Assembly (NCBI RefSeq): GCF_004792295.1
Contig: NZ_SRRY01000001.1
Location: 1,188,501-1,252,500, forward strand
Length of the DNA: 64,000 bases
From: Pseudoalteromonas sp. MEBiC 03607
Lineage (GTDB): Bacteria > Pseudomonadota > Gammaproteobacteria > Enterobacterales > Alteromonadaceae
Direction: 5' to 3'
In this document: one piece after another, positions 10,904-32,356 of the stretch
How positions within the stretch are numbered: position 1 is the stretch's first letter
How the letters are laid out: every line of letters starts with the position of its first letter
Translations under genes and position numbers: made by a program
The notes under the pieces: model-generated
What the model was told of the DNA's origin: nothing
Database searches by the model: none
Seen by the model: only the letters and a program-made list of their open reading frames with translations

Positions 10904-12268
10904 ATGGAAAAAGCTTCGAACCTTGATAGTAAAATGTATGTGCTCGATACCAATGTATTACTCCACGAACCCCTCGCTTATTTATCTTTCCAAGAGCATG
11001 ATGTTGTTATCCCCATGACAGTATTAGAAGAGCTTGACCATATTAAAGATAGAAAACACGATGTTAGTCGTGACGCCCGTGTTGCTATTCGTGGTTTAGA
11101 TGAAGTGTTAAAAGACGCGTCTCCTGAGCAGATGTTGCAAGGGGTGGCACTGCCGAGTAATAAAAAGGCGAAAACAGAGTCTCGTGGCCGCCTAATTATC
11201 GTGAATGATCACTTATTTGCAGACAGTATTTCGGGTTTACCAGGCAACGAAAATGACCATCGTATTATCAATTGTGCAGTGCATTTGCAAAAGCAGCACA
11301 GCGACAGCAAAGTGGTGCTTGTAACAAAAGACATCAATATGCGCCTCAAGGCGAAGGGAGCCGGCCTTAAATTTGTTGAAGACTACAGAACAGACCAATT
11401 AATTGACGACATAGCCTTACTGACCAGCGGCTATAAAAAAATTGACGGAGACTTTTGGCAACAGGTTGGTGAGTGTGAAACTGAGCAGCAAGGCCGAGAT
11501 ACTTATCACCACGTAGCAAAAAATACGATTAGTGATGTGTTCTGCAATGAATATATTTTAGATGATAGCGATCACTTTGCGGCTCGAGTAACAAGCTACG
11601 ATGATAAACAAATTACTTTAAAAGATATTAGTGTTGAGCGTTTGATGAGCCATACCGCTTGGGGTGTAAAACCTAAGAATGTGTATCAAGGGATGGCACT
11701 TGATGCGCTACTTGACCCAAGCATAGAACTAGTGATTTTAACGGGCCCAGCAGGCTGTGGTAAAACTCTGCTTGCTCTTGCCAGCGCCCTTGAAATGATC
11801 ATTGAAAAAGGCATTTACGACAAAGTTATAGTCACCCGTAACACGCCAGAAATTGCTGAATCAATTGGCTTTTTACCCGGTACTGAAGAAGAGAAAATGG
11901 CCCCTTGGTTAGCAGCAATTACCGATACTTTAGAAGTGTTGCATAAAGGAGATGAAAACCCGATTTCGAGCCGTAATTATATTATGGAAAAAGCCAACGT
12001 ACAGTTTAAATCGGTGAACTTTATGCGCGGCCGTAGCATTCAAAACGCCGTTGTTATTTTACAACCCCGAATTGGGGATATTTTAAAGTTTTTACCCCCT
12101 TGTTTTTATTGGCCTGTAGAAAAAGTAAAAAGAATTTCCAAAAAAATTGATTACCTTAGCTACTCTGAGCAGTCTCTCAACAATAAACCTTTACTCAAAA
12201 TTTGTAATTTACAAGAAAAGTACAACACAAAGCCTAGCAACGATTCAATCTTTTGGGAGGCTGCGTAA
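10904..12268 (+). pseudogene. phoH: Host phoH2 (PIN-PhoH ATPase), 5' part, truncated by island insertion and fused to an island-encoded tail
   Basis: PIN-PhoH proteins pair an RNase-type PIN domain with a PhoH RNA helicase/ATPase. Codons 1-386 are native: PIN domain (LDTNVLLHEP; later NDHRIINCAVHLQ and VTKDINMRLKAKG) and PhoH domain with Walker A (GPAGCGKT near residue 285) up to GRSIQNAVVIL. The sequence should then continue DE-Q (Walker B), but at 12061 it switches to island DNA and reads 68 unrelated residues to a TAA at 12266. The product lacks Walker B and the C-terminal 79 residues, so ATPase function is predicted lost; the PIN domain could still fold. The missing part is at 62658-62897. 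Confidence 0.9.
12053..12074. repeat. Left island end: imperfect direct repeat plus terminal inverted repeat arm
   Basis: GTTATTTTA (12053-12061) matches GTGATTTTG at the right end in 7 of 9 positions. After CAA, CCCCGAATTG (12065-12074) is the exact reverse complement of CAATTCGGGG at 62639-62648. The arm is itself part of a small local palindrome (CCCC-GAATT-GGGG). Confidence 0.85.
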
Positions 12269-13650
12269 TGAAAAGCTCTATTGATAATCGAAATCCTCGT
12301 GTACTAGACACATCTGCATTAGTACATGATCCAAAATCTATTTTTAGCTACAAAGATGATATTTACATCTGTCTAACTGTCCTTGAAGAGCTTGATAACC
12401 TGAAAGAAAGAACTAATAAATCGGTAAGTGCCGATGCCCGTATGTGCATTAGAATGCTTGAAGACATTATAAATGGACATACAGCCGAGGAAATGGAAAT
12501 AGGTATTCCTTTACCATCTACCGAAACAGCCCAGAGAGGAAAGCTTTTCATTGGAATTGACACTCAATTGGATCTGGCTAAGGAGTTAAAGCACGGGATA
12601 GGAAGTGATGCTGATAACAGAATAATTAATTATGCTTTATATCTTCAAAAAGAACTCAATAAAGACGTAATAATTGTTAGCCGTGACATTAATATGCGCT
12701 TGAAAGCTCGAACCGTAGGGGTCATGGCAGAAGACGTTGCCGTAGATAATCAAATATCAGATATTGATCTTTTATACACAGGGGTACAAGCCTTTAAAGG
12801 AGATCTTTTTGATCGAATTAAATCAGACAAAGACTTCAAGGTTTCAGGAGAAGTTTATACTTTCCCAATAAGTCTATTTAATGATGAAGTTCAGCCAAAC
12901 ATGTATTGGTACGATGAAGCTGGACACATTGGGCGAATTTCAGAAGTAACAGATACTGAGGTATTCACAAAGCTATTGCCTCGTAAACAAGAAAAAGTAT
13001 GGGGCATTTTGCCTAAAAATCAGCGTCAGTCGGTAGCTTTAAGCCAATTAACAGACCCTTACTATGATTTAAATATCATCCTTGGTCCTGCTGGCTCCGG
13101 AAAAACTTTTTTGGCAGTTGCTTCGGCGCTGCATCAAGTATTGGAGTTGAAAAAGTACAAAAAAATCGTTGTGGTGCGCTCCAGAGACTTTATGGACGAC
13201 GATCCGGGATTCTTACCGGGGGATTTAACTGAAAAATCAATGCCTCTTCTGGCAGGTATTACTGACGCATTAATTTCGATGCACTCGGATGATAATCATG
13301 AAGGAAATGTCTACGCTACAGTCGAGCATGTGATTGAAAAAGCCAATATAGAATTTACTAGCATGGCTTATTTTCGTGGCCGTTCAATAGACGATGCTGT
13401 TTTAATCATTGATGAAGCTCAAAACATGACTAGAGCGCAAATCAAGGGCATGTTAAGCCGTGGTGGGAAAAATTGTCGGACAATCGTATTGGGCAACCTA
13501 GCCCAGATTGACGATAAGTTTGTAACACCTGCTTCTTCTGGTGCAAGTGCGGCTGTTAATGTGTTTCGTCATTATGAAAAAGGATCAGTGCTGATTTTTG
13601 ATGAAGTAGAGCGTAGTAGCTTGGCTGAATTCTCTGAAAAGAATATGTAG
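12268..13650 (+). CDS. Island-encoded complete PhoH2-type protein (PIN domain plus PhoH ATPase)
   Basis: A 460-residue full-length counterpart of the interrupted host gene. The PIN domain begins LDTSALVHDPKS and contains ADNRIINYALYLQ and VSRDINMRLKART; the PhoH domain has Walker A GPAGSGKT (near residue 275), Walker B LIIDEAQNM (near 383) and the conserved end RSSLAEFSEKNM. It is clearly diverged from the host protein, so it is not a recent duplication. The ATG at 12268 is chosen because GGGAGG (12255-12260) precedes it; it overlaps the stop of the chimeric host frame (TAATG). A terminator follows. Inferred role: replaces the disrupted host function. Confidence 0.92.
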   Translation: MKSSIDNRNPRVLDTSALVHDPKSIFSYKDDIYICLTVLEELDNLKERTNKSVSADARMCIRMLEDIINGHTAEEMEIGIPLPSTETAQRGKLFIGIDTQLDLAKELKHGIGSDADNRIINYALYLQKELNKDVIIVSRDINMRLKARTVGVMAEDVAVDNQISDIDLLYTGVQAFKGDLFDRIKSDKDFKVSGEVYTFPISLFNDEVQPNMYWYDEAGHIGRISEVTDTEVFTKLLPRKQEKVWGILPKNQRQSVALSQLTDPYYDLNIILGPAGSGKTFLAVASALHQVLELKKYKKIVVVRSRDFMDDDPGFLPGDLTEKSMPLLAGITDALISMHSDDNHEGNVYATVEHVIEKANIEFTSMAYFRGRSIDDAVLIIDEAQNMTRAQIKGMLSRGGKNCRTIVLGNLAQIDDKFVTPASSGASAAVNVFRHYEKGSVLIFDEVERSSLAEFSEKNM

Positions 13651-13694
13651 GCATCAAACTACCATTCACATTTCCTTATAATATTGCGACAATG

Positions 13695-13719
13695 GCCACT
13701 GCTTTTTGCAGTGGCTTTT
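13695..13719 (+). terminator. Rho-independent terminator after island phoH2
   Basis: Stem GCCACTGC/GCAGTGGC (13695-13702, 13708-13715), loop of five T, followed by TTTT. It closes the phoH transcription unit 45 bp after the stop codon. Confidence 0.85.
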
Positions 13720-13844
13720 CAGAGAAGCCCGTTCCCACGAAAACAGGACGAAATGGATTTACTCTGAACTAAAAGATTAAATATTCACATAAAAACTGAG
13801 TGACATAGGTGCGTGGCCTAGCGTTGCCGTTTTTTGGTGTATTG

Positions 13845-14207
13845 ATGTCTTTTAATAAAGAAGACCTGCTAGTAAATATAAAAAGGCAGGCAAAACGATT
13901 ATCTAAATTATTAACTATTCCCCTTGGACAAGCCCAAGAAGGGGCAGCTATTTGTCTATATGGCTGTGACAGTTACAGCGATTTACTAGTAAAAATAAAA
14001 GCTGAATCCTTTGATAACCCATTGATAGCACTGTCTGCACTCTCACCAAACTCGGAAATATTTTTAGTAAAAATATTAGCTAGCCACCTAGATAGCATTA
14101 TTGGAAATTTTGAAAAAAAATTTCCCGGCTCCAATATAAATGAAGAGATGGTCGTATCCTTGTTTGGGCTTAGCTTTTCAGAGTTCAAACTCAAAATATC
14201 TACCTAA
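13845..14207 (+). CDS. Hypothetical protein with QAQ-type N-terminal helix motif
   Basis: 120 residues, start ATG at 13845 (MSFNKEDLL); a longer GTG-started reading at 13809 adds 12 unlikely residues. The N-terminal half, IKRQAKRLSKLL followed by GQAQEGAAICLYGC and YSDL, has the pattern of a small helical module seen at the N-terminus of many uncharacterised proteobacterial proteins (QA-rich helix, then an aromatic-Gly turn). The same pattern recurs in the 345-residue protein encoded next. The C-terminal half is helical with FEKKFPGSN. No signal peptide, no catalytic motif. First of four unknown genes. Function unknown. Confidence 0.6.
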   Translation: MSFNKEDLLVNIKRQAKRLSKLLTIPLGQAQEGAAICLYGCDSYSDLLVKIKAESFDNPLIALSALSPNSEIFLVKILASHLDSIIGNFEKKFPGSNINEEMVVSLFGLSFSEFKLKIST

Positions 14208-14414
14208 AGTTGTACAAATACGTAAGTTGTCATTTTGTTTTTTGGCGATATTATAATAAGAAGGCTGAACGGACAGCCTACGCCTACACATGTTTTTCGC
14301 CTTGAAAACGTGAACAGTGAAGCGGAGCATCCGTAAAAATTTGGTTATTTGAACAATAAATAAAGCAATGTGTTGGTAGGCCATTGTTTATTAAAAAGTT
14401 GTTTGGAGAACTAA

Positions 14415-15452
14415 ATGATCTCACTTTATCAATTAAAGAATAAACTCAATAAACAAGCAAAAGAGTTTGCTGAGTTATTAGAGTTTCCTGATCTTTACGC
14501 CCAAGGCCTGTGGGCTAGAGGTGTTTATAACTGCCCTCATTTTTCTGATACCCATAATAGCCTCACTGAAGCATTTGAACAGAAAAAACTGGATTCAATT
14601 CTAAAGCACGATTCCCTGAAATATTTAATGATCAACGAACACGATGATCAAGAAATTATTGAATCGCTTCATAAAGAAATTGAGTCAATGGCAAACCGTA
14701 TTGAAAGCCTGATGCTGGTAGATATTGAAACTTTAGATTTAGTTTCATTGATATACCAAGTTTTAGGGTTACCTGAAGATGCCAAGTTTATTGTTAATAC
14801 AGGCGCAGACTTCCGCTTAGAGTGGCGACCATACTTTGATGCCTTTGATGATCCGTTGATAGTTCAATATGCAGATTTAAAAGTTCATGGTTGTTATTTC
14901 AGGCTCATAGCTTCAAAGTTTCCGGTTGAAAAGCTTTCCTTGGATGACATTAAAAAATACATGTACATCAATCATGTAAACCATAATGGTGAGTTCGAAG
15001 GCTGTATTTCTGAAGGAAATACATTTTCTAAGCATGTGCACTGGCTGGTGTTGACACTTGAATTATTCAGTAGCGGCAAAGTAAATAAGGCTCAGTTCAA
15101 TCCAACAACCTTCAAAATCGAAGGTATGCGCTATTTGGTATACGGCTTCCCTCTGATTCCTTCCTTTGTATCTGATTGGCACAAACCTAATTTGTGTTTA
15201 CGTGTTAAAAATCTAGATGGCGATCAGAAGTTCATTGTTCGTATCGATCAGCAAGATCTTGTTTTTTATGCGAGGCGCGTTGATACCAATTTTTTTAACA
15301 CCATCGATTATGAAAAATACATTTCGTTGTATCAATCTAGTGTTCTGTCACATTTTGATGCTGACAACAATTTACTTAAAGTTGATGGGGTTAAATATCT
15401 AAGTTTCTTTCGTCCTTTTTCTGTAGAAGATATGAAAGGAGTTCAAGCATGA
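14415..15452 (+). CDS. Hypothetical protein, 345 residues
   Basis: Unrecognised soluble protein. The start ATG at 14415 is preceded by TTTGGAGAA. The N-terminal region (LNKQAKEFAELLEFPDLYAQ, then VYNC, then HFSDT) aligns with the N-terminus of the 120-residue protein upstream, suggesting a shared module. The rest is mixed alpha/beta with many aromatic residues (WRPYFDAFDD, HVHWLVLTLELF, RYLVYGFPLIPSF) and no nucleotide-binding or nuclease signature that I can see. Its stop overlaps the next start (ATGA at 15449), so it is translationally coupled to the following gene. The 207 bp upstream hold only a short AGGCTG/CAGCCT hairpin (14263-14280). Confidence 0.65.
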   Translation: MISLYQLKNKLNKQAKEFAELLEFPDLYAQGLWARGVYNCPHFSDTHNSLTEAFEQKKLDSILKHDSLKYLMINEHDDQEIIESLHKEIESMANRIESLMLVDIETLDLVSLIYQVLGLPEDAKFIVNTGADFRLEWRPYFDAFDDPLIVQYADLKVHGCYFRLIASKFPVEKLSLDDIKKYMYINHVNHNGEFEGCISEGNTFSKHVHWLVLTLELFSSGKVNKAQFNPTTFKIEGMRYLVYGFPLIPSFVSDWHKPNLCLRVKNLDGDQKFIVRIDQQDLVFYARRVDTNFFNTIDYEKYISLYQSSVLSHFDADNNLLKVDGVKYLSFFRPFSVEDMKGVQA

Positions 15453-15766
15453 GACCTAGAGTAAAACTAACCAACGCAAAACTTATCTCAATTCAATCTG
15501 ATACAGAGGAAAAAGTTGAACGGGTGCTTTACGGCACATTTGCTGACGAAAATGAAAATGGTAAAGAAGGAGATGCTTTATTCACGATAAAGGTTCTGGA
15601 AATCAATGGTCAAGAAAGTAAGTGCTTTGGTGTTGACTTTTATATCTTAGATGCTGTACCAAAAGAGTTTGATGTAAATGCATTTGAGTTTAATTTAATG
15701 CATGAGTGTATGTATTCTCCTAATAAGTTATTAGAGCTGCGAAATATGCTCCCGGCTAGTTATTAG
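15449..15766 (+). CDS. Small hypothetical protein, 105 residues (paralogue of the next gene)
   Basis: Coupled by a 4-bp overlap to the 345-residue gene. A beta-rich N-terminal half (VKLTNAKLISIQS, VERVLYGTFADE) is followed by VDFYILDAV and a C-terminal helix ending NKLLELRNMLPASY. The order of elements and spacing match the next protein: a VxLxxAxIxS start, an E-x-I/V-x-x-G-x-F strand, and a final LEMR/LELR helix. This suggests an old tandem duplication. No known family recognised. Confidence 0.6.
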   Translation: MRPRVKLTNAKLISIQSDTEEKVERVLYGTFADENENGKEGDALFTIKVLEINGQESKCFGVDFYILDAVPKEFDVNAFEFNLMHECMYSPNKLLELRNMLPASY

Positions 15767-15778
15767 TAAGGGAATACG

Positions 15779-16126
15779 TTGGATAGAATATATTTAAAGG
15801 ATGCCTACATAGTATCTGTTTACGACTATAAAGAATTTGAAAAAATATTTCTTGGCGAGTTTTTATCAGGGGTGGTTATTGAAGATGAAACATTCAGGTT
15901 CCGGCCATTTCAGCAAATCGTGACTTCAAAGGTTGTTAGCAAATCTGCTGATGAGGATAAGTTAGAAATATACACACATAGTGAGAGTTGTTATGTGATT
16001 GATGCTGACCATAAGTTAATTGATATTTCGTTTGTTGAACTGGTTGTTATGAGGGCGGGAGCTTATTCGGTAGATCGAGTTTTAGAAATGAGAGAGCAAC
16101 TTAAGTCTCAAAATAAAAGCCATTGA
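15779..16126 (+). CDS. Small hypothetical protein, 115 residues, probable TTG start
   Basis: The reading frame starts at TTG 15779 with AAGGG (15768-15773 region) upstream; there is no in-frame ATG near the N-terminus, so a TTG start is likely. IYLKDAYIVSVYD, then FEKIFLGEF, then SCYVIDADH, then VDRVLEMREQL parallels the preceding 105-residue protein. It is the last of the four unknown genes; the copper block begins 157 bp downstream. Function unknown. Confidence 0.55.
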   Translation: MDRIYLKDAYIVSVYDYKEFEKIFLGEFLSGVVIEDETFRFRPFQQIVTSKVVSKSADEDKLEIYTHSESCYVIDADHKLIDISFVELVVMRAGAYSVDRVLEMREQLKSQNKSH

Positions 16127-16283
16127 ATAACGAAGATAAAAAGTCTGATGAGATTATTATTTGTCACTTACCTCTTTGAAAAAATTGACGTTAGTCAAAT
16201 ATTCATAAATGTTTACATGACATCAATTTACTTATTCGAAAATTTGTATTAGCATAGACAATGTATATTTTTATGAGAATTTT

Positions 16284-16643
16284 ATGTCTAAAGCATTTTC
16301 AAAAGTCTTAGTAATAACGCTTATGCTGTTTGCCTTTGTAGGGCAAGCATTTGCGTATTCTGCTATGCCGTGCGAAATGTCATCAGGTTCTCACGAATCA
16401 CACATGAACATGAACATGAACATGGATCATGGTGATATGAATAAAAGCAGTAATGGTCAATCAGAAGATTGTTGTGACGTTGAATGTGTTTGTCCTGCAA
16501 ATGCTTGCTCATCTACGACAGTCCTAAATTCCAGTATTGATTCGACAGATATTCAAATATTGAGTGAATCTGTAGCTGCTCTGCAATCTAAACAACCTCA
16601 TTCAATTTCCACTTCCCTTTATCGTCCACCAATTTTTGCCTAA
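16284..16643 (+). CDS. Small periplasmic Met/His/Cys-rich metal-binding protein heading the cus operon
   Basis: 119 residues with a signal peptide (ending FAYS), an HMNMNMNMDHGDM metal-binding stretch near residue 40, a Cys cluster CCDVECVCPANAC near residues 62-74 and a conserved end SLYRPPIFA. It is related to the protein encoded at 31216-31638, which ends LLYRPPIIG, and to small periplasmic proteins found at the head of heavy-metal efflux operons (CzcI/CopL-like). It probably buffers or senses Cu in the periplasm. A palindrome TTGAC-GTTA-GTCAA at 16185-16198 lies upstream and could be a regulator site. Confidence 0.7.
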   Translation: MSKAFSKVLVITLMLFAFVGQAFAYSAMPCEMSSGSHESHMNMNMNMDHGDMNKSSNGQSEDCCDVECVCPANACSSTTVLNSSIDSTDIQILSESVAALQSKQPHSISTSLYRPPIFA

Positions 16644-16750
16644 TACAGGATTAGTGCGTCTAAATTTCGCGCACATGTAATTAATTTTTCTGTTAGTCAA
16701 TATAGCGTCGTAGCGCTATAGCTATTTTCCAGCGATGTCTGGGGGCAAAA

Positions 16751-17248
16751 ATGATCAATAAGTATTTAAAAATAGCAGTTGTAATGCTGCTTTCACCTGC
16801 GTTTGCAAACGCCAATGAACATAAGCATGCACACAATAACGACGTAACACCTTTGGAGTTAATCGTTTATAAAACCCCTACTTGTGGGTGTTGTAAAAAA
16901 TGGATAACTCATATTGAAGACAAAGGGATCGTTGCGCATTCCAAAGATTTCCGAAACATCGGCAATATCAAAACTAAGTATGGTATTAAACCTAATTACC
17001 GTTCATGCCACACGGCAGTGAGTAGAAATGGATTTGCCTTTGAAGGCCATGTACCCGCTAAGTTTATTCAGCAGTTCTTGTCAGAAGAGCACCCCAATGC
17101 GATTGGATTATCTGTCCCAGCAATGCCTGTTGGCTCTCCGGGTATGGAAGTCGGCGACCGCTTTATGTCATATAACGTATTAATTTTATTTAAAGATGGA
17201 ACGAGTAAAGTATATGCAGAAGTTAAGGCTTATGAGGAGCAATTCTAA
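16751..17248 (+). CDS. DUF411 periplasmic metal-binding protein
   Basis: 165 residues with a signal peptide (ending FANANE). DUF411 hallmarks are all present: YKTPTCGCCKKW near residue 40 (CGCC metal-binding motif), RSCHTAV near 93, EGHVPAKFI near 104 and GLSVPAMPVGSPGME near 125. DUF411 proteins are small periplasmic copper-binding proteins commonly found with Cus/Cop systems. It overlaps the next gene (TAATG) and is co-transcribed with cusCBA. Confidence 0.85.
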   Translation: MINKYLKIAVVMLLSPAFANANEHKHAHNNDVTPLELIVYKTPTCGCCKKWITHIEDKGIVAHSKDFRNIGNIKTKYGIKPNYRSCHTAVSRNGFAFEGHVPAKFIQQFLSEEHPNAIGLSVPAMPVGSPGMEVGDRFMSYNVLILFKDGTSKVYAEVKAYEEQF

Positions 17249-18675
17249 TGAGATTAAATGTTTCAAGCCTTACTCTACTTTCAACTTCGCTAATGCTCGG
17301 CTTGTCTGTATTCTCAGCTCAAGCTGAGAAAGTAGTGTCACTTGAACAAGCTATCACCTTGGCTCAGCAAAATGATCCTTGGCTTCATGGGAGTCGGTTA
17401 AAACAAAGCGCGGTTGAAAATAGAAGTATCGCTTCAGGTACTTTGCCTGACCCCAAAGTATCACTAGGGATAATGAATTTACCAACAGATACTTGGGACT
17501 TAGATCAGGAAGGAATGACTCAACTAAAGGTTGGTGTTTCTCAAATGTTTCCTAGAGGTGATAGTTTAAAGATTAAACAAGAGCAATTAAAAATTGAGTC
17601 AACGAAATTTCCACTGCTACGAGAGGATCGTAAGGCTAAACTGATAAGCCAAGTATCACAGTTATGGTTAGATGCTTACTTAGCCCAACAAACCATTAAA
17701 TTGATTGAAGCGGATTGGGCGCTCTTTGAGCAGATGGCGGAAGTTACTAAAGCTAGCTACTCAAATGTTGTTGGTAAAACCAGACAACAAGATGTTATTC
17801 GTGCTCAATTGGAAATCGTGCAGTTAGATGACCGATTAACTTCGCAAAAGCAGAAACTAGAAACAACAATCGCTCGCCTTAATGAGTGGCTTCATATCTA
17901 CGATGCTGCTGGCTTGAATGAATCATTCAACTTTGATACGCAACCATTAGAGTTTAGGGTTTCTAAAAAGTTGCCTACAATTCATTTGAACAATTCAACA
18001 GTCCTAAAAGCATCTAATTACTCAAGAAATCTATTGGCTCAGGAGCTTTCGAATCACCCAGCCATACTTGCAATTGATATAAAACGCAAAGCTTCAGAAA
18101 AAGCAGTTGAGTTAGCTAAACAGCAATATGAGCCGCAATGGGGTGTTAATGCTAGTTATGCCTATCGTGACAATATGCCCTCTGGTGATAGCCGAGCTGA
18201 TTTATTTTCTGTTGGAGTAACGTTTGATTTACCCTTGTTCACCGAGAACAGACAAGATAAGCAAGTTGCAGCTTCTATTGCAGATTCAGAGACTATTAAA
18301 ACCGAGAAACTATTACTGACAAAGCAAATGATCAGTATGGTGGAAAAGGAGCTTAGACAGCTTAAGCGTTTATCTGATAGGCAATCTATCTATCAAGAAC
18401 AACTCCTTAAACAAACTCATGACCAAGCAGAAGCGTCATTGACAGCTTACACAAATGATGATGGCGATTTTGCCGAAGTTGTTCGAGCAAGAATCGCAGA
18501 ATTAAATGCCAGAATATCAGCCTTAAGAATTGATGTTGACGCACTTAAAACAGTTGCTCGTATCAACTATTTCTTTGCGCGTTCTCAATCTAACTCAAAT
18601 GCTGAACATAAGTCGATGCAAACTTCACACAAAACTAATCAGCACTTATCCAATCAGCAATTTGGAGAAAAATAA
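17248..18675 (+). CDS. cusC: Outer-membrane efflux channel of TolC/CusC type
   Basis: Outer-membrane exit duct of the Cus tripartite pump. 475 residues, signal peptide ending SAQAEK, then two OEP repeats of the TolC fold (VSLEQAITLAQQNDPWL start; second repeat from about residue 265, HPAILAIDIKRKASEKAVELAKQQYEPQWGV). It has no lipoprotein Cys. Start and stop overlap the neighbouring genes (TAATG on both sides), giving a tight operon with DUF411 and cusB. Confidence 0.88.
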   Translation: MRLNVSSLTLLSTSLMLGLSVFSAQAEKVVSLEQAITLAQQNDPWLHGSRLKQSAVENRSIASGTLPDPKVSLGIMNLPTDTWDLDQEGMTQLKVGVSQMFPRGDSLKIKQEQLKIESTKFPLLREDRKAKLISQVSQLWLDAYLAQQTIKLIEADWALFEQMAEVTKASYSNVVGKTRQQDVIRAQLEIVQLDDRLTSQKQKLETTIARLNEWLHIYDAAGLNESFNFDTQPLEFRVSKKLPTIHLNNSTVLKASNYSRNLLAQELSNHPAILAIDIKRKASEKAVELAKQQYEPQWGVNASYAYRDNMPSGDSRADLFSVGVTFDLPLFTENRQDKQVAASIADSETIKTEKLLLTKQMISMVEKELRQLKRLSDRQSIYQEQLLKQTHDQAEASLTAYTNDDGDFAEVVRARIAELNARISALRIDVDALKTVARINYFFARSQSNSNAEHKSMQTSHKTNQHLSNQQFGEK

Positions 18676-20432
18676 TGTCAACGAATACTAAAACAATTAT
18701 TGCCATCATCATTGGTGCTGCACTAGGCGCAGGAGTATTGAGCTTATATCAAGGTGCAGGTTCAAACAGTAATAGAGATGAAACAACATCAGCAGAGAAA
18801 AAGCCTCTGTATTGGGTTGCACCGATGGATTCTAATTACCGCCGGGACAAGCCCGGTAAGTCGCCTATGGGGATGGATTTAATTCCTGTGTATGAGGAAG
18901 AATCATCTGGTGATGATTTTGGTCCCGGAGCAGTAAAAATTGCGCCTCATGTAGTGAATAACCTAGGGGTTCGCACTGCACCTGTTGAGCTGAAAAATAT
19001 GCATACTGAAATATCAACGGTTGGTTACGTTCAATATGATGAAGATAAGCTAATTCATATCCACCCACGTGTTGATGGTTGGATTGAAAAACTCTATGTC
19101 AAAGCGGCAGGTAACCCTGTAGAGAAAGGGCAGCCTCTTTATACACTGTATTCTCCTCAGTTAGTTAACGCGCAAGAAGAACTTTTAATAGCTTTAAAGC
19201 GCGACAATAGTTCCTTAATTTCGGCGGCGAAAGATCGCCTTAAAGCGTTACAGCTTTCAGCAGATTTCATTCAAAAGCTAGAAAAGACTAGAAAAGTTCA
19301 GCAAACCATCACCTTTTATTCACCACAAGCAGGTGTTGTTGACGGTTTGAAGATTAGAGAAGGCTTTTATGTCAAGCCGGGAAACACCTTATTAAGCATT
19401 GGTCAACTAGAGCAAGTTTGGGTTGAAGCAGAAGTGTTTGAACGTGACGCAGCCTTAATTAAAGAAGGACTGCCTGTATCAATCACACTTGACTATTTAC
19501 CCGGTGAGGACTGGGCTGGTGTCGTTGATTATGTTTATCCAACATTGAATAGTAAAACACGCACACTCAGAGTGAGACTGAAGTTTGACAACCCAGACTA
19601 TCAATTAAAACCAAACATGTTTGCACAAGTCTCTATTCACGCTAATCAAGCTGATAGCACGATACTCGTACCTAAAGAAGCCGTCATTCGCACAGGTAAA
19701 CAAGACAGAGTTGTACTTGCCTTGGGGGATGGGCAATTTAAGTCTATCGAAGTGACAATTGGCCGGGTTGATATCGATAGTATCGAAATCTTAGAGGGTC
19801 TTAATGAAGATGATGTTGTGGTGACATCTGCTCAATTCTTGATTGATTCTGAATCAAGTAAAAACTCTGATTTTAAACGAATGACTCATGACGAAGTGCC
19901 TAGCTCTGTTTGGATGGAAGGCGAAATCAACAGCGTCATGGCGGGACATCGTATGGTTAATATTACTCATGGGCCTGCTGAGGCTTGGGATTGGCCTGAA
20001 ATGACAATGGACTTCGATGTGGGTGCAAAGGTAGATATTGATTCACTGAAGTCTGGTCAATCTTTGCACTTTGAAGTGAGCAAAACCGAAGACGGTGGAT
20101 ATGAAGTTACTGGAATTCATATCATGAGTGAGCCTGCTGATATGAGTGAAGAAGTATCATCAGCAACAGTATCAGGTTTAATTAATGCGATTGATATTGA
20201 TACACGGATTCTAAATATTAGTAGAGGCCCAATAGATAAATGGGATAGGCCTGCTGCGACGATGGATTTTATCGTCGCGGACAATATAGAAATGGTTGAT
20301 TTCAATGTCGGTGATAATCTCACTTTCACCTTTGAGGTAAGAGATGACTTAGTGATAACTGAAATTTCCCTTGAATCTGATGATCAACACGAGCATGAAC
20401 AAAAAAGTGCTGTTGACCATTCGAATCATTAA
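18675..20432 (+). CDS. cusB: CusB-type periplasmic adaptor with two C-terminal CusF-like domains
   Basis: Membrane-fusion protein linking the RND pump to the outer channel. 585 residues: N-terminal membrane helix, heavy-metal-binding segment (YWVAPMDS to SPMGMDLIPVY, about residues 46-75), then hairpin, barrel and membrane-proximal domains. Fused at the C-terminus are two CusF-like barrels. The first (about 410-485) keeps the Cu/Ag ligands: His in NITHGP and Trp, Met, Met in WPEMTM. The second (about 494-565) has ISRGP and RPAATM at the same places, so His, Trp and the first Met are lost. Duplicate CusF fusion with one degenerate copy is unusual. Confidence 0.9.
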   Translation: MSTNTKTIIAIIIGAALGAGVLSLYQGAGSNSNRDETTSAEKKPLYWVAPMDSNYRRDKPGKSPMGMDLIPVYEEESSGDDFGPGAVKIAPHVVNNLGVRTAPVELKNMHTEISTVGYVQYDEDKLIHIHPRVDGWIEKLYVKAAGNPVEKGQPLYTLYSPQLVNAQEELLIALKRDNSSLISAAKDRLKALQLSADFIQKLEKTRKVQQTITFYSPQAGVVDGLKIREGFYVKPGNTLLSIGQLEQVWVEAEVFERDAALIKEGLPVSITLDYLPGEDWAGVVDYVYPTLNSKTRTLRVRLKFDNPDYQLKPNMFAQVSIHANQADSTILVPKEAVIRTGKQDRVVLALGDGQFKSIEVTIGRVDIDSIEILEGLNEDDVVVTSAQFLIDSESSKNSDFKRMTHDEVPSSVWMEGEINSVMAGHRMVNITHGPAEAWDWPEMTMDFDVGAKVDIDSLKSGQSLHFEVSKTEDGGYEVTGIHIMSEPADMSEEVSSATVSGLINAIDIDTRILNISRGPIDKWDRPAATMDFIVADNIEMVDFNVGDNLTFTFEVRDDLVITEISLESDDQHEHEQKSAVDHSNH

Positions 20433-20446
20433 GTGGGAGAAAAATA

Positions 20447-23400
20447 ATGATTGAATCAATTATTAGGTGGTCTATCGGCAATCGTTTCTTTGTTTTGTTG
20501 ATTACCTTAATTATCGCGTTTGGTGGTTTGTATTCATTACAAAAAACGCCAGTAGATGCACTCCCAGATCTTTCTGATGTGCAGGTGATAATTAAGACGA
20601 GTTATCCGGGACAGGCACCACAAGTTGTGCAGGATCAAGTGACATTTCCTCTTACTACAGCGATGTTATCAGTGCCGGGGGCGCAAACTGTTCGTGGTTA
20701 CTCATTCTTTGGTGATTCCTACGTCTACATTATTTTTGATGATGATACTGATTTGTATTGGGCTAGAAGCAGAGTACTTGAATACTTAAGCCAAGTAGCA
20801 TCAAGCCTGCCTGATTCGGCAAAACCTCAATTAGGACCTGATGCAACAGGTGTGGGTTGGGTATACATTTACGCTTTAACAGATAAGTCTGGAAACCATG
20901 ATCTAAGCCAATTAAGAAGCATTCAAGACTGGTTCTTAAAGTATGAACTACAAACTGTTCCGGGCGTGTCCGAAGTTGCCGCCGTTGGTGGTATGGTTAA
21001 GCAGTATCAAGTGCAAGTAGATCCTGACAAATTGAGAGCTTACGATATTCCTCTAAGTTTAATACAAATAGCCTTACAAAAAGGGAACAAAGAAACTGGC
21101 GCATCCGTTGTGGAAATGGCTGAAGCTGAATATATGGTTACCGCAACGGGGTATATTCAATCAGTTAGTGATATAGAGAAAATTCCACTTGGTATTAACG
21201 AACAAGGCACGCCGTTGCGTATTGGTGATGTTGCCAACGTTAACCTTGGTCCTCAAATGCGCCGTGGTATCGCAGAACTTAATGGCGAAGGCGAAGTTGT
21301 TGGTGGCGTTGTCGTTATGCGCTTTGGTGAAAACGCTCAACAAACCATAAATGGGGTAAAAGAAAAGCTTGAGTCGCTCAAATCTTCTTTACCAGAGGGG
21401 GTGGAGGTTGTCCCTGTCTATGACAGATCGAAGTTAATAGATCGTGCTGTTGATAACCTTTGGAGCAAGTTGCTAGAGGAGCTTGCAGTCGTGGCTATTG
21501 TCTGTGTTGCTTTCCTATTTCATCTTCGCTCATCAATTGTGGCAGTTGTTACTCTACCATTAGGTATATTGGTGTCATTCATCATCATGTATATGCAAGG
21601 CATCAATGCCAATATTATGTCTTTAGGCGGTATCGCTATTGCTATTGGTGCGATGACTGATGGTGCAATAGTGATGATTGAAAATATGCATAAACATATG
21701 GAGAAAACACCACTAACAGATGAAAACCGTTGGCAAATTGTAGCTAAGGCTGCGAGTGAGGTAGGCCCTGCATTATTTTTTAGCTTGCTGATCATAACTG
21801 TCTCATTCTTACCTGTGTTTATCTTAGAAGCGCAAGAAGGAAGAATGTTTTCACCGCTCGCCTATACAAAAACCTATGCAATGGCTGCATCAGCAGGCTT
21901 GGCAATAACATTGGTGCCTGTTTTGATGGGCTACTTTATTCGAGGCAAAGTCGTCTCTGAAAAGAAAAACCCGTTAAACCGATTATTGATTGCTATCTAC
22001 ATGCCTGTTTTAAAGCAAGTCATGAAGTTTCCAAAATCGACAATAGTCGCAGCAGTATTAGTGACTATCGTTGGTTTTTGGCCTGTCGATAAAATTGGTA
22101 GTGAATTCATTCCGCCATTGGATGAAGGCGACCTTATGTATATGCCTACTACATATCCCGGCATTTCAATCGGTAAAGCAAGAGAGTTATTGCAGCAAAC
22201 GGACAAGCTTATTCGCACTGTGCCAGAAGTTGAAAATGTATTCGGTAAAGTAGGACGAGCTGAAACCGCAACTGACCCTGCGCCTCTAACCATGATTGAA
22301 ACCTTTATTCAATTGAAGCCACGGGAGGAGTGGCGAGAAGGCGTGACAACTGAGTCGTTAAAAGCTGAGTTTGATAAGTTGGTTAAATTTCCGGGCTTAA
22401 CCAATGCTTGGGTCATGCCAATCAAGACCCGCATTGACATGTTAGCTACAGGTATAAAAACGCCTGTCGGTATTAAAGTCGCCGGACCAGAACTTGATGT
22501 AATTCAGGATATCGGCCAACAAATAGAACAACTCTTGCCAGAAGTGACAGGCACAGCGTCAGTTTACTCTGAACGAGTTGCAGGTGGACGATATATCAAG
22601 GTTGATATTTCACGAGATAAATCAAGTCGCTTTGGGTTAAATATCGAAGATGTCCAACAAGTAGTTTCTACTGCGATTGGCGGTATGAATGTGACACAAA
22701 CGATAGAAGGTCAAGAGCGTTACCCTGTTAATCTGCGCTATCCGCAAGATTATCGAGATTCTCCTGAGCAGCTAGCACGATTACCTGTTGTAACACCAAG
22801 TGGTCAACGCATTGCACTAGGTGATGTTGCTGATATTCGAATAGAGAATGGCCCACCGGGTATTAAAAGTGAGAATGCCAGAATCAATGGTTGGACTTTC
22901 ATTGATATTGATAGCGTTGATGTAGGTACTTATGTTGAAAATGCTAAAGAACACTTAGCAAATAACCTGACATTACCAGCAGGCTATTCAATTACTTGGG
23001 CCGGACAATACGAATATATGGAAAGAGCGAAAGAAAAGCTCACCTATGTATTGCCTTTAACACTCGCCATTATTGTTATTCTGCTTTACCTGAATTTCAG
23101 AGCGTTTAGTGAAGTGGCTATCATTATCGTTACCTTGCCGATGGCAATGATCGGTGGCTTATGGTTGATGTATCTAGAAGGGTTTAATTTCTCAGTAGCT
23201 GTTGGTGTGGGCTTTATCGCTCTAGCTGGTGTTGCGGTTGAGATTGGCGTGATAATGCTGGTTTATCTTAATCAAGCACTTGCTGAGCTTAAGGAAAAAG
23301 CGGTGGAGCGAGCAGAACTCATCTCAGATGATGCATATCAAGATGCATTATTGCACGGTGCTGGCTTACGAGTTCGTCCAGTAATGATGACGGTAGCTAC

Positions 23401-23611
23401 AATCATTATAGGTTTAATGCCTATTTTATATGGTACTGGTACAGGTTCTGAGGTCATGAGCCGCATTGCTGCTCCTATGGTAGGCGGAATGACAAGTGCT
23501 GTGCTGCTCACGCTTATTGTACTCCCTGCAATTTACTCAATCATTAAAAAGCCTGAAGTAAATGCCTTTAACAAAGAGCTTTCTAACGTGGAGCCTGAGA
23601 ATAATGCTTAG
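20447..23611 (+). CDS. cusA: CusA-type heavy-metal RND efflux pump (Cu/Ag)
   Basis: Inner-membrane proton-driven pump of the HME-RND family. 1054 residues with 12 predicted helices in the usual 1+5+1+5 plan. TM4 reads IAIAIGAMTDGAIVMIEN, the CusA-type proton-relay sequence (compare the CzcA type at 39828-42938, which has an extra Asp). Periplasmic regions match the Cu/Ag subgroup (ENVFGKVGRAETATDPAPL and METFIQLKPREEW-like segment). A Met-rich export path is expected but not fully verified by eye. It follows cusB by 14 bp with GGGAG before the ATG. Confidence 0.92.
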   Translation: MIESIIRWSIGNRFFVLLITLIIAFGGLYSLQKTPVDALPDLSDVQVIIKTSYPGQAPQVVQDQVTFPLTTAMLSVPGAQTVRGYSFFGDSYVYIIFDDDTDLYWARSRVLEYLSQVASSLPDSAKPQLGPDATGVGWVYIYALTDKSGNHDLSQLRSIQDWFLKYELQTVPGVSEVAAVGGMVKQYQVQVDPDKLRAYDIPLSLIQIALQKGNKETGASVVEMAEAEYMVTATGYIQSVSDIEKIPLGINEQGTPLRIGDVANVNLGPQMRRGIAELNGEGEVVGGVVVMRFGENAQQTINGVKEKLESLKSSLPEGVEVVPVYDRSKLIDRAVDNLWSKLLEELAVVAIVCVAFLFHLRSSIVAVVTLPLGILVSFIIMYMQGINANIMSLGGIAIAIGAMTDGAIVMIENMHKHMEKTPLTDENRWQIVAKAASEVGPALFFSLLIITVSFLPVFILEAQEGRMFSPLAYTKTYAMAASAGLAITLVPVLMGYFIRGKVVSEKKNPLNRLLIAIYMPVLKQVMKFPKSTIVAAVLVTIVGFWPVDKIGSEFIPPLDEGDLMYMPTTYPGISIGKARELLQQTDKLIRTVPEVENVFGKVGRAETATDPAPLTMIETFIQLKPREEWREGVTTESLKAEFDKLVKFPGLTNAWVMPIKTRIDMLATGIKTPVGIKVAGPELDVIQDIGQQIEQLLPEVTGTASVYSERVAGGRYIKVDISRDKSSRFGLNIEDVQQVVSTAIGGMNVTQTIEGQERYPVNLRYPQDYRDSPEQLARLPVVTPSGQRIALGDVADIRIENGPPGIKSENARINGWTFIDIDSVDVGTYVENAKEHLANNLTLPAGYSITWAGQYEYMERAKEKLTYVLPLTLAIIVILLYLNFRAFSEVAIIIVTLPMAMIGGLWLMYLEGFNFSVAVGVGFIALAGVAVEIGVIMLVYLNQALAELKEKAVERAELISDDAYQDALLHGAGLRVRPVMMTVATIIIGLMPILYGTGTGSEVMSRIAAPMVGGMTSAVLLTLIVLPAIYSIIKKPEVNAFNKELSNVEPENNA

Positions 23612-24311
23612 CACGGCTAGAAAATATCACAAATGGCTAATGGCATTTGTCGGAATACAATTCCTCTTCTGGTCTATTACAGGCGTGTATATGGTGACTA
23701 TGGATATTCACTATATACACGGCGAAACCTTGGCTAAGAGTGAGGAACCCAAAATAGATTTAGCAAGTATGGATTACTCCATTGTAAAGCTAGCTGCGGA
23801 TTATCCTAAAGCTAGCCAAGTTACACTTACTCAAAGTATGGGCCGCCCTTTGTATTCTTTTATTAATGGAGAAAATGGAAAAGTAGCAATAGATGCTAAA
23901 ACTGGAGCTGTTCAGGCCCTTGTAGATGAAACCAAGGCTAAAGAAATCGCACAATACCATTATGCGCTGAATCATCAAATCGACAGCATAAGGTTGATTA
24001 AGTCAGCGACAAACTTGCCTGCTGAGTTGTCCCCAAGGCATTTACCTGTTTGGAGAGTGACGTTTGAGCAATTCTCCACACCGACATTTTATATAAGTCA
24101 ACAAACAGGATCACTTGTTGCCAAGCGTCATGATTACTGGCGATTGTTTGATTGGATGTGGCGGTTCCACATTATGGATTACTATGATGGAGAAAACGTA
24201 TCTAACTGGTTTTTGTTCTTGGTCGCAACTCTAGGTCTAATGGGAGCAATTACTGGCGCAGTATTGACTTATTACCGAGTGCTTTCCCCAAATAAAAAGG
24301 GAGTCATTTGA
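23604..24311 (+). CDS. PepSY-domain inner-membrane protein
   Basis: 235 residues; the ATG at 23604 overlaps the end of cusA by 8 bp. There is an N-terminal helix (YHKWLMAFVGIQFLFWSITGVYMV), a periplasmic PepSY-like region (TGAVQALVDETKAKEIAQ and PVWRVTFEQFSTPTFYISQQTGSLV) and a C-terminal helix (WFLFLVATLGLMGAITGAVLTYY). The RLFDWMWRFHIMDYYDG stretch is typical of PepSY_TM proteins paired with iron/copper reductases. It overlaps the next gene (TGATG), a PepSY-reductase fusion, so both likely form one membrane redox unit. Confidence 0.8.
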   Translation: MLSTARKYHKWLMAFVGIQFLFWSITGVYMVTMDIHYIHGETLAKSEEPKIDLASMDYSIVKLAADYPKASQVTLTQSMGRPLYSFINGENGKVAIDAKTGAVQALVDETKAKEIAQYHYALNHQIDSIRLIKSATNLPAELSPRHLPVWRVTFEQFSTPTFYISQQTGSLVAKRHDYWRLFDWMWRFHIMDYYDGENVSNWFLFLVATLGLMGAITGAVLTYYRVLSPNKKGVI

Positions 24312-26143
24312 TGCGACTATTTAAGTTAAATACAACGATACACAAGTGGCTTTCTTTATTTGTTGGTTTACAACTGCTTATTTGGTTGGGAACGGGCCTT
24401 TACTTCAATTTGATGGATCACAGTAAAGCCAGTGGTAATGAACTTAGAGTTCATTCTCATCATGAAGGTAGCATTACAGGCTTTGACCTATTCCCTATTA
24501 AAGACATTACTAGTAATGCTCCGCAGGAAGTAAACCTTATATGGGTTTTACATCAGCCTTACTATCATTTTGTGTTCGATAAGGGGCAGCATAGCTATCA
24601 AGAACGCCACTCAAAGCTATTTGATGCTGTAACAGGAAAGCCATTTAATTTGTCTGAAGAACAAGTACTAACTTTGGCAAAAAACTCCTACTCAGGACAG
24701 GGTAAGTTAACTACTCCAGTGTTATCTCAACCTCCGTTTTCTGATCACGTAAGGCAGCAAAATCCTATGTGGCAAGTTGCCGTTGAGGATGAGAACAATA
24801 CAACTATTTATTTAGATAGTATTACAGGCCAAGTACTTCGCCATGCCAATGATGATTTCAGATTGAAAGATCTGATGATGAAGCTTCACTTTATGGACTA
24901 TGGCAATTCTGGAGGATTTAACCATTGGTTGATCATTGCATTTGCTTTTGCAACGCTATTCCTTTCAATTACTGGTGTTACTTGGCTGATACAACAGTAT
25001 CGAAGTGGTTTACTGAAGCTAGGTTGGGGCACTAACAGGCAAAAAGTGGCAGTGACGTTTTCCAATGAAAATACTATTACTGACATCTCAGCAGTTGGTC
25101 GCTCAACTGTATTAGAAGGGCTAGCTAGTTCACATGTATACCTTCCTTCAGGTTGCGGTGGTGGCGGTACTTGTGGCAAATGCGTGTTCTTAAGTTCAAC
25201 TAAATTACCTATCACACTATCTGAACAGGAACATTTATCTCAGGAGCAACTTAAGGAAGGTTATCGGCTTGGATGTCAGCATAGGTTCTCTGAAATTAGT
25301 TCGATTGAAGTTAATACTGATCGCAATATTGAAAATCATGAGCTAGTTGTGGTTGCGACTAACTTCATTACTCCTTTTATCAAGGAAGTGAAGTTTAAGG
25401 TGAAATCAGGCAAACAGTTGGCATTTAAAGCTGGTGCATATATGCAATTTGATGTGCCAGCAGGGATGAATAGCTTACGTCCAGATGATATGCCAGAGTG
25501 CTATGAAAAATACTGGGATAGCTACTATCATGGAAAATTTTCTCATAACGGTGTAACTCGCCACTACTCATTAGTTAACTTTGACGAGGAGTCTGATGAG
25601 TTAATGTTTAATATCCGTTGGCAGACCGCAAAGAATGGTTTTAAAGCAGGAATAGGTTCAAGTTATTTAGGTTCACTCCAAGTAGGTGAAACGATAACTG
25701 CAAGAGGCCCTTTTTCTGATTTTTATGCCACTTCAAATAAAAAAGTTAGTCGCGTGTTTATAGGTGCGGGTTCAGGACTTGCACCACTGAGGTCTATTAT
25801 TTTTGAACAGTTGAAAAAGCATAAAGATAAAAGTGGTTTGACTCTTATCTATGGTGCGCGAACTGAAGATGACTTGCTATACCATAATGAATTGAAGTCA
25901 CTGAGTGAGAAGCATAAAAACTTCTCTTATATTCCTACTCTTTCTAATCCTTCAGAAGAATGGCAAGGGCACTCAGGCTATGTTCAAAAAGTACTTCTGC
26001 CGTATATGAACCAAAAATCAGAACTGCATTTGGCTGAGTTTTACTTGTGCGGTCCAGAAGCAATGATGAGTGAAGTGGAAAAAATAATTACAAATGCTGG
26101 GATTCCAAGTAATCAAATTTTCAAAGATAAATTTAGTCGTTAA
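24311..26143 (+). CDS. PepSY membrane domain fused to 2Fe-2S ferredoxin and FAD/NAD(P)H reductase
   Basis: 610 residues, ATG 24311. The N-terminal third repeats the PepSY membrane architecture (HKWLSLFVGLQLLIWLGTGLYF; LMMKLHFMDYG; C-terminal helix near residue 220). A plant-type ferredoxin domain follows (SGCGGGGTCGKCVF near residue 281, later RLGCQHRF), then an FAD-binding barrel (RHYSLVNF) and an NAD(P) domain (GAGSGLAPLRSI, YLCGPEAMM). The C-terminal two thirds resemble the NqrF/phenol-hydroxylase reductase family. Inference: passes electrons from cytosolic NAD(P)H through the membrane to a periplasmic acceptor, perhaps Cu(II) or Fe(III). Encoded within the copper operon. Confidence 0.82.
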   Translation: MRLFKLNTTIHKWLSLFVGLQLLIWLGTGLYFNLMDHSKASGNELRVHSHHEGSITGFDLFPIKDITSNAPQEVNLIWVLHQPYYHFVFDKGQHSYQERHSKLFDAVTGKPFNLSEEQVLTLAKNSYSGQGKLTTPVLSQPPFSDHVRQQNPMWQVAVEDENNTTIYLDSITGQVLRHANDDFRLKDLMMKLHFMDYGNSGGFNHWLIIAFAFATLFLSITGVTWLIQQYRSGLLKLGWGTNRQKVAVTFSNENTITDISAVGRSTVLEGLASSHVYLPSGCGGGGTCGKCVFLSSTKLPITLSEQEHLSQEQLKEGYRLGCQHRFSEISSIEVNTDRNIENHELVVVATNFITPFIKEVKFKVKSGKQLAFKAGAYMQFDVPAGMNSLRPDDMPECYEKYWDSYYHGKFSHNGVTRHYSLVNFDEESDELMFNIRWQTAKNGFKAGIGSSYLGSLQVGETITARGPFSDFYATSNKKVSRVFIGAGSGLAPLRSIIFEQLKKHKDKSGLTLIYGARTEDDLLYHNELKSLSEKHKNFSYIPTLSNPSEEWQGHSGYVQKVLLPYMNQKSELHLAEFYLCGPEAMMSEVEKIITNAGIPSNQIFKDKFSR

Positions 26144-26167
26144 TCCATTAAATAAATAGAGGTATAT

Positions 26168-26515
26168 ATGAAAACATTAATTAAACTTTTAACCATAATC
26201 AGTGTTGTTTTTAGTAGTGCAGTATTTGCACATGTGCATCTTGAAAAAAGCGTGCCTGCTGATAATGCAATGCTAATGAATACTCCAGAAAAATTGACAT
26301 TGGGATTTAGCAAAGAGGTACGTGTAGTTAAAGTTACGTTGAAAAATAAAAAAGGTGAAAATATTAAATTTGACTTTAAACCATCAAAAGAAGCTTCCAG
26401 AGAGTTTTCATGGGAACTACCTAAATTAGCTCCAACAAACTATATCGTTGATGTGACCTATTTAGGTAAAGATGGACATAAAATGAAAGATAGCTTCGGC
26501 TTTATGGTTCATTAG
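26168..26515 (+). CDS. copC: Periplasmic copper-binding protein CopC
   Basis: 115 residues, signal peptide ending VFAH, so mature His-1 is the classic N-terminal Cu(II) ligand (HVHLEKSVPADNAM). Further CopC features are TPEKLTLGFSKEV and the C-terminal DGHKMKDSFGFMV with a conserved His. It is followed within 10 bp by copD. Confidence 0.9.
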   Translation: MKTLIKLLTIISVVFSSAVFAHVHLEKSVPADNAMLMNTPEKLTLGFSKEVRVVKVTLKNKKGENIKFDFKPSKEASREFSWELPKLAPTNYIVDVTYLGKDGHKMKDSFGFMVH

Positions 26516-26524
26516 TAAGGCTGT

Positions 26525-27421: not shown

Positions 27422-27436
27422 AACCTAAAAGAGAGA

Positions 27437-27907
27437 ATGAAAATGAAAACAATAAATATATTACTCGTTTTATTAATGACGTTTAGTTTCGCAGCAAACG
27501 CTCATGGTGATAAGAACAAAGACAAAGGTTTGTTTAAAGGTATAGATACCCCAGCCGCAAAAGTTGTTTTGGCATTTCATCAAGCACTTGAAACTGGCAA
27601 TCAAAAACAGGCTAGAGCGCAGTTAGCGGATGATGTCACCATCTTCGAGGGAGGCCGCGTTGAAAGGAGCGCTGATGAATATGCTCATCATCATATGTTG
27701 TCGGATATGAAGTATTTAGCAGCGATGAAGAGCGACACACTTGAACATCAAGTGACGATACTTGGAAATACCGCTATCTCTGCGTCGCGCAGTCAAACTA
27801 CAGGTACTCATAAAGGTGTTGAACGCGATTATCAAGGCATGGAAACGATGGTGCTGGAAAAACAAAATGGTGAATGGAAGATTAAGCACATTCATTGGTC
27901 ACATTAA
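27437..27907 (+). CDS. Secreted SnoaL/DUF4440-like (NTF2-fold) protein
   Basis: 156 residues with signal peptide (ending AANAHG). The mature part has an NTF2-like cone-fold pattern: AAKVVLAFHQALETGNQKQARAQLADDVTIFEGG at the start and MVLEKQNGEWKIKHIHWSH at the end. Such proteins occur in copper-resistance clusters. His-rich ends (HHH near residue 80, HIHWSH at the C-terminus) suggest a metal-linked role but this is inference. ATG 27437 and 27443 are both possible. It lies between copD and copA. Confidence 0.75.
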   Translation: MKMKTINILLVLLMTFSFAANAHGDKNKDKGLFKGIDTPAAKVVLAFHQALETGNQKQARAQLADDVTIFEGGRVERSADEYAHHHMLSDMKYLAAMKSDTLEHQVTILGNTAISASRSQTTGTHKGVERDYQGMETMVLEKQNGEWKIKHIHWSH

Positions 27908-27934
27908 TTTATTGGTCAAACAACGGAGAGTAAA

Positions 27935-32348: not shown

Positions 32349-32356
32349 GAGGAAAA

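Follow-up and report, generated by a model that had tools for sequence, protein, structure and literature searches.

The window analysed here is a stretch of 64,000 nucleotides from Pseudoalteromonas sp. MEBiC 03607 (contig NZ_SRRY01000001.1, positions 1,188,501 to 1,252,500), in which the resident phoH2 gene is cut at its Walker B motif by a 50.6-kb island (12062–62651). Read from the sequence, the resident open reading frame (ORF) spans positions 10904–12268 and includes a tail that derives from the island: native resident sequence ends with the spacer ATTTTA, island DNA begins at position 12062, and the resident frame then stays open for 68 codons before it reaches a TAA stop. The last A of this stop is also the first base of the ATG of a second, full-length phoH2 gene carried by the island, and a GGGAGG motif lies within the fused tail, referred to below as the bridge. 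A preliminary description of the DNA had proposed this junction, with its open host frame, its TAA overlapping the island ATG and its GGGAGG, and the proposal is confirmed to the base (Table 1).

Both genes encode proteins with the PhoH2 layout, a PIN domain followed by a PhoH ATPase, and PF13638 and PF02562 score above their gathering cut-offs in the resident as well as in the island protein. The two proteins share 38% identity over 380 aa. Neither reaches the 680-bit cut-off of the NCBIfam equivalog NF053827, which is still the best match in the library (152.7 bits for the island protein and 163.6 bits for the resident piece). In sister genomes, such as L017, phoH2 is uninterrupted. In the window's own genome, nothing matches the PhoH family beyond a canonical PhoH, the two resident pieces and the island phoH2, which is therefore the one complete phoH2 seen there.

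Table 1. Features of the interrupted phoH2 locus and of the island, in window coordinates.
Feature	Position	Strand	Details
5′ part of resident phoH2	10904..12061	+	PIN_4 and ATPase to Walker B, ~386 of 465 aa; intact sister copy 465 aa
6-bp spacer, phoH2-proximal end	12056..12061	+	ATTTTA; one base off the sister empty site ATTTTG
Terminal inverted repeat, island left end	12062..12074	+	CAACCCCGAATTG; 12/13 match to right end
Coding-frame bridge	12062..12268	+	68 codons in resident frame, then TAA
Shine-Dalgarno-like motif within bridge	12255..12260	+	GGGAGG, seven bases before ATG
TAATG overlap	12266..12270	+	bridge stop TAA 12266–12268, island phoH2 start ATG 12268–12270
Island phoH2 (replacement)	12268..13650	+	460 aa, PIN_4 and PhoH; intact Walker A GPAGSGKT and Walker B LIIDEAQN
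Cargo	13651..55574	.	copper resistance genes, resolvase, Qat-type genes, others
Small fourth module protein (srap/ginD position)	55767..56231	-	154 aa, no family match; relatives have same position
IntB-like tyrosine recombinase	56228..58333	-	701 aa, RHRY present
Tfp-like protein	58309..61092	-	927 aa, box-I Arg and HxxR absent
IntA-like tyrosine recombinase	61064..62554	-	496 aa, RHRY present
Terminal inverted repeat, island right end	62639..62651	+	CAATTCGGGGGTG
6-bp spacer, recombinase end	62652..62657	+	ATTTTG, identical to empty site of sister genome L017
Orphan 3′ part of resident phoH2	62652..62897	+	aa ~384–465 (LDESQNLT...), adjoins recombinase end

The opposite end of the island is occupied by a four-gene module with RHRY in its first and third proteins and not in its second. 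In alignments with relatives, read by eye, R, HxxR, H and Y are kept in recombinases 1 and 3, and protein 2 is without the box-I R and HxxR. The termini form imperfect inverted repeats (CAATTCGGGGTTG / CAATTCGGGGGTG, 12 of 13 positions matching) within the 13–19 bp expected of strand-biased circularizing integrative elements (SEs), and the spacer at the intA end, ATTTTG, equals the empty site of L017, with ATTTTA at the other end differing by one base. By gene order and catalytic motifs the element appears SE-like rather than a member of the GInt class, where RHRY is missing from the third protein, GinC; here the third protein has RHRY and the second is without it. The identification as a GInt in the preliminary description is accordingly withdrawn. 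An automated search for inverted repeats returned none inside the two end regions; k-mer matching and inspection by eye served to read the terminal repeats. A survey of ends across loci did not find the right-end motif for four loci, and in L013, L029 and L058 its Walker A match fell on the island gene, not on the resident. Relatives of Tfp and IntB at ~30% identity are found on betaproteobacterial plasmids of Azonexus, Azospira and Caballeronia. A palindrome at the island end, CCCCGAATTGGGG (12065–12077), lies inside the bridge and scored as a terminator-like site on the + strand.

The same arrangement is found well beyond the window. An alignment of island-type PhoH2, used to scan one genome per species, yielded 48 loci, and the DNA upstream of each was read. 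An interrupted resident 5′ piece lies upstream on the same strand at 34 of the 48, cut at Walker A (17 loci), at Walker B (10), in the C-terminal region (5) or at about residue 328 (2). At the two last-named loci, L038 and L055, the recombinase operon of the element stands between the resident piece and phoH2, and at L032 and L033 a 66-codon ORF occupies this position. Seven of the 48 sit at the rapA–phoH2 locus with a remnant or a short leader only (remnants matched by BLAST in L037, L053 and L064 and by eye in L040 and L046; a short leader ORF only in L054 and L057), and L028, at a contig edge, and L072, a fragment, were not classifiable. At one locus, L050, the island phoH2 lies behind a cut older island copy, and L052 carries both a cut resident and a cut island copy; replacement therefore occurs in series. 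The same genomes hold resident 3′ pieces at other places; many of these lie beside a recombinase module, and often the 3′ piece begins at the point where the 5′ piece stops. In G112, G113, G114, G124, G125, G132 and G151, and also in G256, G280 and G300, the 3′ piece starts later than the 5′ piece stops, a pattern suggestive of another insertion into, or a deletion within, the same gene.

The recombinase modules are not the same at every cut site. An IntA relative of the window element is present in the genome of 12 of the 15 Walker B and C-terminal loci (none in L048 and L056; L052 was not covered), and these relatives adjoin the resident 3′ piece, except at L035, where the element is nested. 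Conducted over 395 family genomes, a count of intA relatives gave 19, the window included, with 16 at phoH2; 15 of these 16 have a resident 3′ piece beside intA, and the remaining one, L121, is the nested element of L035. Elements cutting at Walker A have a module with proteins of 1090–1585, 772–789, 234–251, 144–160 and 742–749 aa, seen at six of the seven right ends whose 3′ piece starts at residue 286–301 (not L076) as well as at the nested L089; its 742-aa protein in L073 matches the RecD2 helicase. A third module, at L038/L055, comprises proteins of 777/778, 760/766, 183/187 and 480/468 aa. Tyrosine-recombinase motifs are readable in the 785- and 760-aa proteins. Profile comparison among the three recombinases gave probabilities of 11%, 72% and 1%, and because these links are weak or absent we treat the three as distinct families within a single superfamily. 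We also considered, for the Walker A-site elements, the Gamma-mobile-trio, to which the VPA1267-family gene is presumably linked; that family scored 17.3 bits in L073 and 21.7 bits in L074 against a cut-off of 90, with no match in L075 and L077. The architecture recurs, then, at four cut sites and with at least three distinct tyrosine-recombinase modules in many marine bacteria. On plasmids, island-type phoH2 at 60% identity or above was found in 0 of 72,556 records, with 617 weaker matches.

The three intA relatives away from phoH2 adjoin genes that by eye resemble hsdS/hsdM (L127, L128) or comM (L130), and no comM copy was seen in the captured part of the L130 element, which ended at a contig edge. 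SE-like modules stand beside hsdS/hsdM genes or pieces at L127, L128, L132, L133 and L135 (annotated in L135, by eye in the others), and further hsdM/hsdS genes lie on the far side of the module at the same loci, a possible second case of target replacement. At L130 and L131 the SE-like module adjoins the 5′ part of a comM/yifB-like gene, and the contig ends before the far end.

Since the first scan required an island-type phoH2, a search with the resident protein was added. Across 108 genomes of the genus, 94 have an intact resident only, 12 an interrupted resident together with the island type, and 2 no match; the replacement is thus present with 12 of 12 interrupted residents as against 0 of 94 intact ones. 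In the family set, 38 of the 395 genomes give two or more matches, and 35 of these 38 hold an interrupted resident with an island-type phoH2 downstream (5 placed with the sister and genus sets, 8 placed separately, and 22 matched to known loci by equal E-values). The other three are G343, the frameshifted G357 and G465, which has a second partial copy on another contig. In 6 of the 395 genomes the island type is present and nothing matches the resident at E ≤ 1e-60 (again matched to loci by equal E-values). The preliminary description had proposed to test whether other elements inserted in phoH carry a phoH of their own and had read the junction as a case of 'break it and replace it'. With the replacement in all 12 genus interruptions and all 35 clear family interruptions, the test has a positive outcome, some genomes being unclear or contrary, and the reading is strongly supported.

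Of 2000 dinucleotide shuffles of the window's bridge, 0.75% leave the frame open, and there are 3 and 6 stops in the other two frames, so that the openness of the bridge exceeds chance. At 13 of the 15 Walker B and C-terminal loci, four of them near copies of the window (L025–L027 and L065; P. gelatinilytica and P. lipolytica, L025/L065, are examples of species with the island), the resident frame is open to the start of the cargo, with a stop within 2 nt of the ATG; of the two others, L035 links through a 41-codon mini-ORF and the nested L052 does not link. The overlap is TAATG in the window and in L048, and ATGA in L011. Tested singly, the 13 open tails are each open in 0.05–3.7% of shuffles, values that do not form a joint probability because the tails were chosen as open and partly share descent. 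Tails outside the window group are 50–67% identical to one another and to the window group and have the same layout, and in L037, L040 and L057, where the resident is mostly lost, the frame still opens into a TAATG overlap. Among the 17 Walker A loci, L058 overlaps, and L042, L044, L045 and L051 link by a mini-ORF, these links measuring, together with that of L035, 25–41 codons. The bridge peptide gives a ratio of nonsynonymous to synonymous substitution rates (dN/dS) of 0.40–0.99 in eight pairs, and of 0.94–0.99 in four of them. The first 26 codons are better conserved in the pair of the window and L011; beyond these, the tail diverges freely in most pairs and the frame is kept. Between 12061 and 12268 the + strand showed no promoter-like site, in a scan that says little because its sites were no more numerous than in shuffles (8 against 8.5 over 10600–13900). 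No attenuator is proposed at the junction: the Shine-Dalgarno region is paired in the lowest-energy fold, but with a z of -0.76, and 51 of 200 shuffles reach an equally good fold.

The island phoH2 itself is under strong purifying selection, with a dN/dS of 0.033–0.069 in pairs with dS of 0.5–2.8 (0.056–0.069 for the window copy against L011, L013, L015, L030 and L048), other pairs being saturated or identical; L011 gives 0.25 against L015 and L030 at a dS of 0.07. A 481-bp junction stretch is 98–99% identical in resident genes that differ at dS 0.3–2.2 (pairs of L012 and L024 with other rows, which were out of register, are excluded), and the element therefore moves. The replacement gene is also exchanged between element types, since the phoH2 of L011, which follows a window-type bridge, lies at dS 0.07 to the Walker A-type loci L015 and L030 as against 0.59 to the window copy. 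The protein tree covers 33 of the 48 loci, seven not having been entered and eight lost to a motif filter (L039, L041, L043, L047, L059, L060, L061 and L069). It does not resolve the position of L011, and it nests the Walker B group of the window within the Walker A-type rows (15 rows, 100/97). The branch between the island type and the residents is supported at 100/100, and the island rows without Ferrimonas at 98/99.

We regard it as very probable that this locus results from dedicated target replacement, in which an SE-like island inserts in the resident phoH2 and a replacement gene takes over. SE-like recombinases would insert the island at a fixed site at Walker B, which, judging from the cut site, would inactivate the resident ATPase, and the first gene at the recombinase-distal end, a complete and distantly related phoH2, would assume its function. 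Sharing the strand of the cut gene and following it without a gap, the island phoH2 appears placed to be read from the resident promoter. Ribosomes on the truncated resident message would stay in frame through island DNA as far as the GGGAGG and TAATG, and such translation should protect the message and permit re-initiation on the replacement. The same type of replacement gene occurs in elements with other recombinases that cut phoH2 elsewhere, and the resident erodes with time until the island copy is left as the only phoH2. Resident-promoter transcription, coupling and functional equivalence of the island PhoH2 are predictions from sequence. Given that SEs, in the passages covered, are reported not to regenerate the empty site (PMC10214605), an insertion inside a gene would be permanent, and carrying a substitute would therefore be reasonable. 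On balance we also favour, with less assurance, a broader proposal: that at least three classes of tyrosine-recombinase elements, in Alteromonadales and relatives, use phoH2 as a common landing pad, each cutting at a different site and each with the same sort of exchangeable replacement, which in SE-like elements is spliced to the resident message by a maintained frame. Serial rounds, some of them striking earlier replacements, would permanently displace the host gene by a lineage of mobile elements, and, if copy-out leaves no empty site, the carried target gene would make the landing tolerable.

Several observations weigh against target replacement or narrow its reach. Among 369 high-quality family genomes, 17 are without a match at E ≤ 1e-60, so that phoH2 is widely kept but not essential. 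Genome G089 (L106) has a scrap of the resident phoH2, its end, beside a copper RND pump-like gene and no phoH2, probably an island remnant without a replacement. Genome G343 (L093, L094) has an orphan 3′ piece and an intact resident-type gene and lacks the island type; the orphan lies 55 kb downstream beside copper cargo, and the last 400 nt of the intact gene are 99.5% identical to it, which looks as if the element lost its left part and the resident was restored by recombination. An intact replacement is missing from six more genomes, which are variously fragmentary, rearranged or frameshifted: G238 and G369 run into contig edges (the former holds an island-type gene in pieces), only the 3′ piece remains in G509 and G440, G207 is rearranged, and G357 has been mentioned above. 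No resident was seen at L061, L067, L068 and L069, the first, second and fourth of which have no rapA nearby and the third a different arrangement. In Ferrimonas marina (G147; L067/L103) an intact resident occurs on one contig and an island-type copy, 66% identical, on another, and the island type as a single clade including Ferrimonas is supported only at 77/0. That copy is the most distant full-length island-type phoH2 among the loci and may be near the source of the replacement lineage. Finally, 12 of the 17 Walker A loci have a gap of 61–292 nt with neither overlap nor mini-ORF link, and the bridge is therefore a rule for SE-like elements and not for all elements inserted in phoH2. Translational coupling, as claimed in the preliminary description, is a prediction that anatomy and evolution support, the frame being open and the stop/start overlap kept where the peptide is not, and the coding bridge is not universal.

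Each of three other explanations accounts for some of these data. That the open bridge is a by-product of terminal DNA bound by the recombinase, with a genuine replacement expressed from its own leader, would fit the better conserved first 26 codons and the gap before phoH2 at most Walker A loci. We nevertheless judge it unlikely, as the tail diverges freely past these codons with its frame kept, the form of the overlap differs between the window and L011, the distant tails at other sites share the layout, and L035, L042, L044, L045 and L051 restore the link through a mini-ORF. Less likely still is a takeover instead of a repair, in which the island PhoH2 would act on altered RNA targets to the element's advantage (against host defence, for instance) and removal of the resident would be deliberate. 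The low identity and long branch to the residents, the strong selection on the island copy and the Qat-type defence genes in the cargo would suit such a role, whereas the domain layout and motifs are those of the resident, and G343 has again come to hold an intact resident-type gene beside element remains.

The exchange of phoH2 between element types, together with the nesting of elements at the locus (L050, L052), could also be taken to mean that phoH2 is ordinary cargo at an insertion hotspot, a copy caught by recombination with no part in repairing the target. This we consider very improbable, because phoH2 is the first sizeable same-strand gene in the clear interruptions of genus and family alike, except L038/L055, and no genus genome with an intact resident holds the island type. 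Moreover, the well-supported branches of the tree make the island type old and distinct from the residents, and it was therefore not picked up from a local resident.

Within the cargo, a Qat-type four-gene anti-phage set lies at 49193–53897, QatC and QatD scoring above the NCBIfam cut-offs and QatA and QatB below. A 63-aa ORF (39545–39736) nearly repeats, by eye, the end of a 117-aa ORF (34705–35058) and appears to be a duplicated remnant in the copper cargo. PADLOC gave weak ATPase matches only for the island PhoH2. In L056, a helicase-like and an ATPase/nuclease-like gene (12135–15697) form a pair that is Gabija-like by eye.

If target replacement is correct, it would explain how a widely kept gene can receive large islands in its catalytic core and how these persist, and phoH2 would provide a clear case of gene displacement by mobile elements, with selection acting on a reading frame and not on its peptide. 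The natural swaps of phoH2 make the function of PhoH2 testable, and the arrangement suggests a search rule, namely to look immediately inside the end of an element for a complete homologue of the gene that it interrupts.

The SEs resemble the window island in organization, sharing with it the IntA-Tfp-IntB-Srap order, RHRY in the first and third proteins, 13-bp imperfect inverted repeats and what looks like a native 6-bp spacer at the intA end; their criteria include Tfp and Srap orthology as established by iterative search, a donor footprint in the spacer opposite that end and hosts limited to Gammaproteobacteria. The term 'phoh' is absent from the main text of the SE paper, and the passages covered mention no target-gene cargo (PMC10214605). 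GInts, as far as the passages covered describe them, are likewise large islands, with a small gene in addition to three recombinase-like ones, inserted specifically into genes, but their catalytically defective protein is the third (GinC) and not, as in the window island, the second; there, C-terminal changes or an outward promoter are expected in place of a replacement gene, and 'phoh' is again absent from the main text (PMC5385486). Integrative and mobilizable elements (IMEs) and other elements at gene ends also avoid loss of the target gene. In the portion of that source used here, IMEs do so by keeping the gene end through an att repeat, whereas the window island cuts at a catalytic motif and supplies a whole diverged gene (PMC5704250). 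A search of one open-licence library gave no paper that describes phoH as the target of such elements, its one hit being unrelated. Tn552-II of Staphylococcus aureus, described in 2025, resembles the window island as a site-specific element that carries a homologue of the gene it interrupts, a 'target-gene-like' gene (tgl) that, its authors propose, may rescue target function; it has a tnpABC module and a biased circular intermediate and, in contrast to the recurrent phoH2 arrangement, is one element with one target family (CDS40, YolD-like). A coding-frame bridge, recurrence across recombinase types, resident erosion or a selection test were not found in the parts of the account covered (PMC12486829). 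On that partial account, Tn552-II is the one precedent found for target replacement; as far as the passages covered show, phoH2 goes beyond it in recurring with different recombinase types, in being replaced serially, in the erosion of its resident copy and in the maintained bridge.

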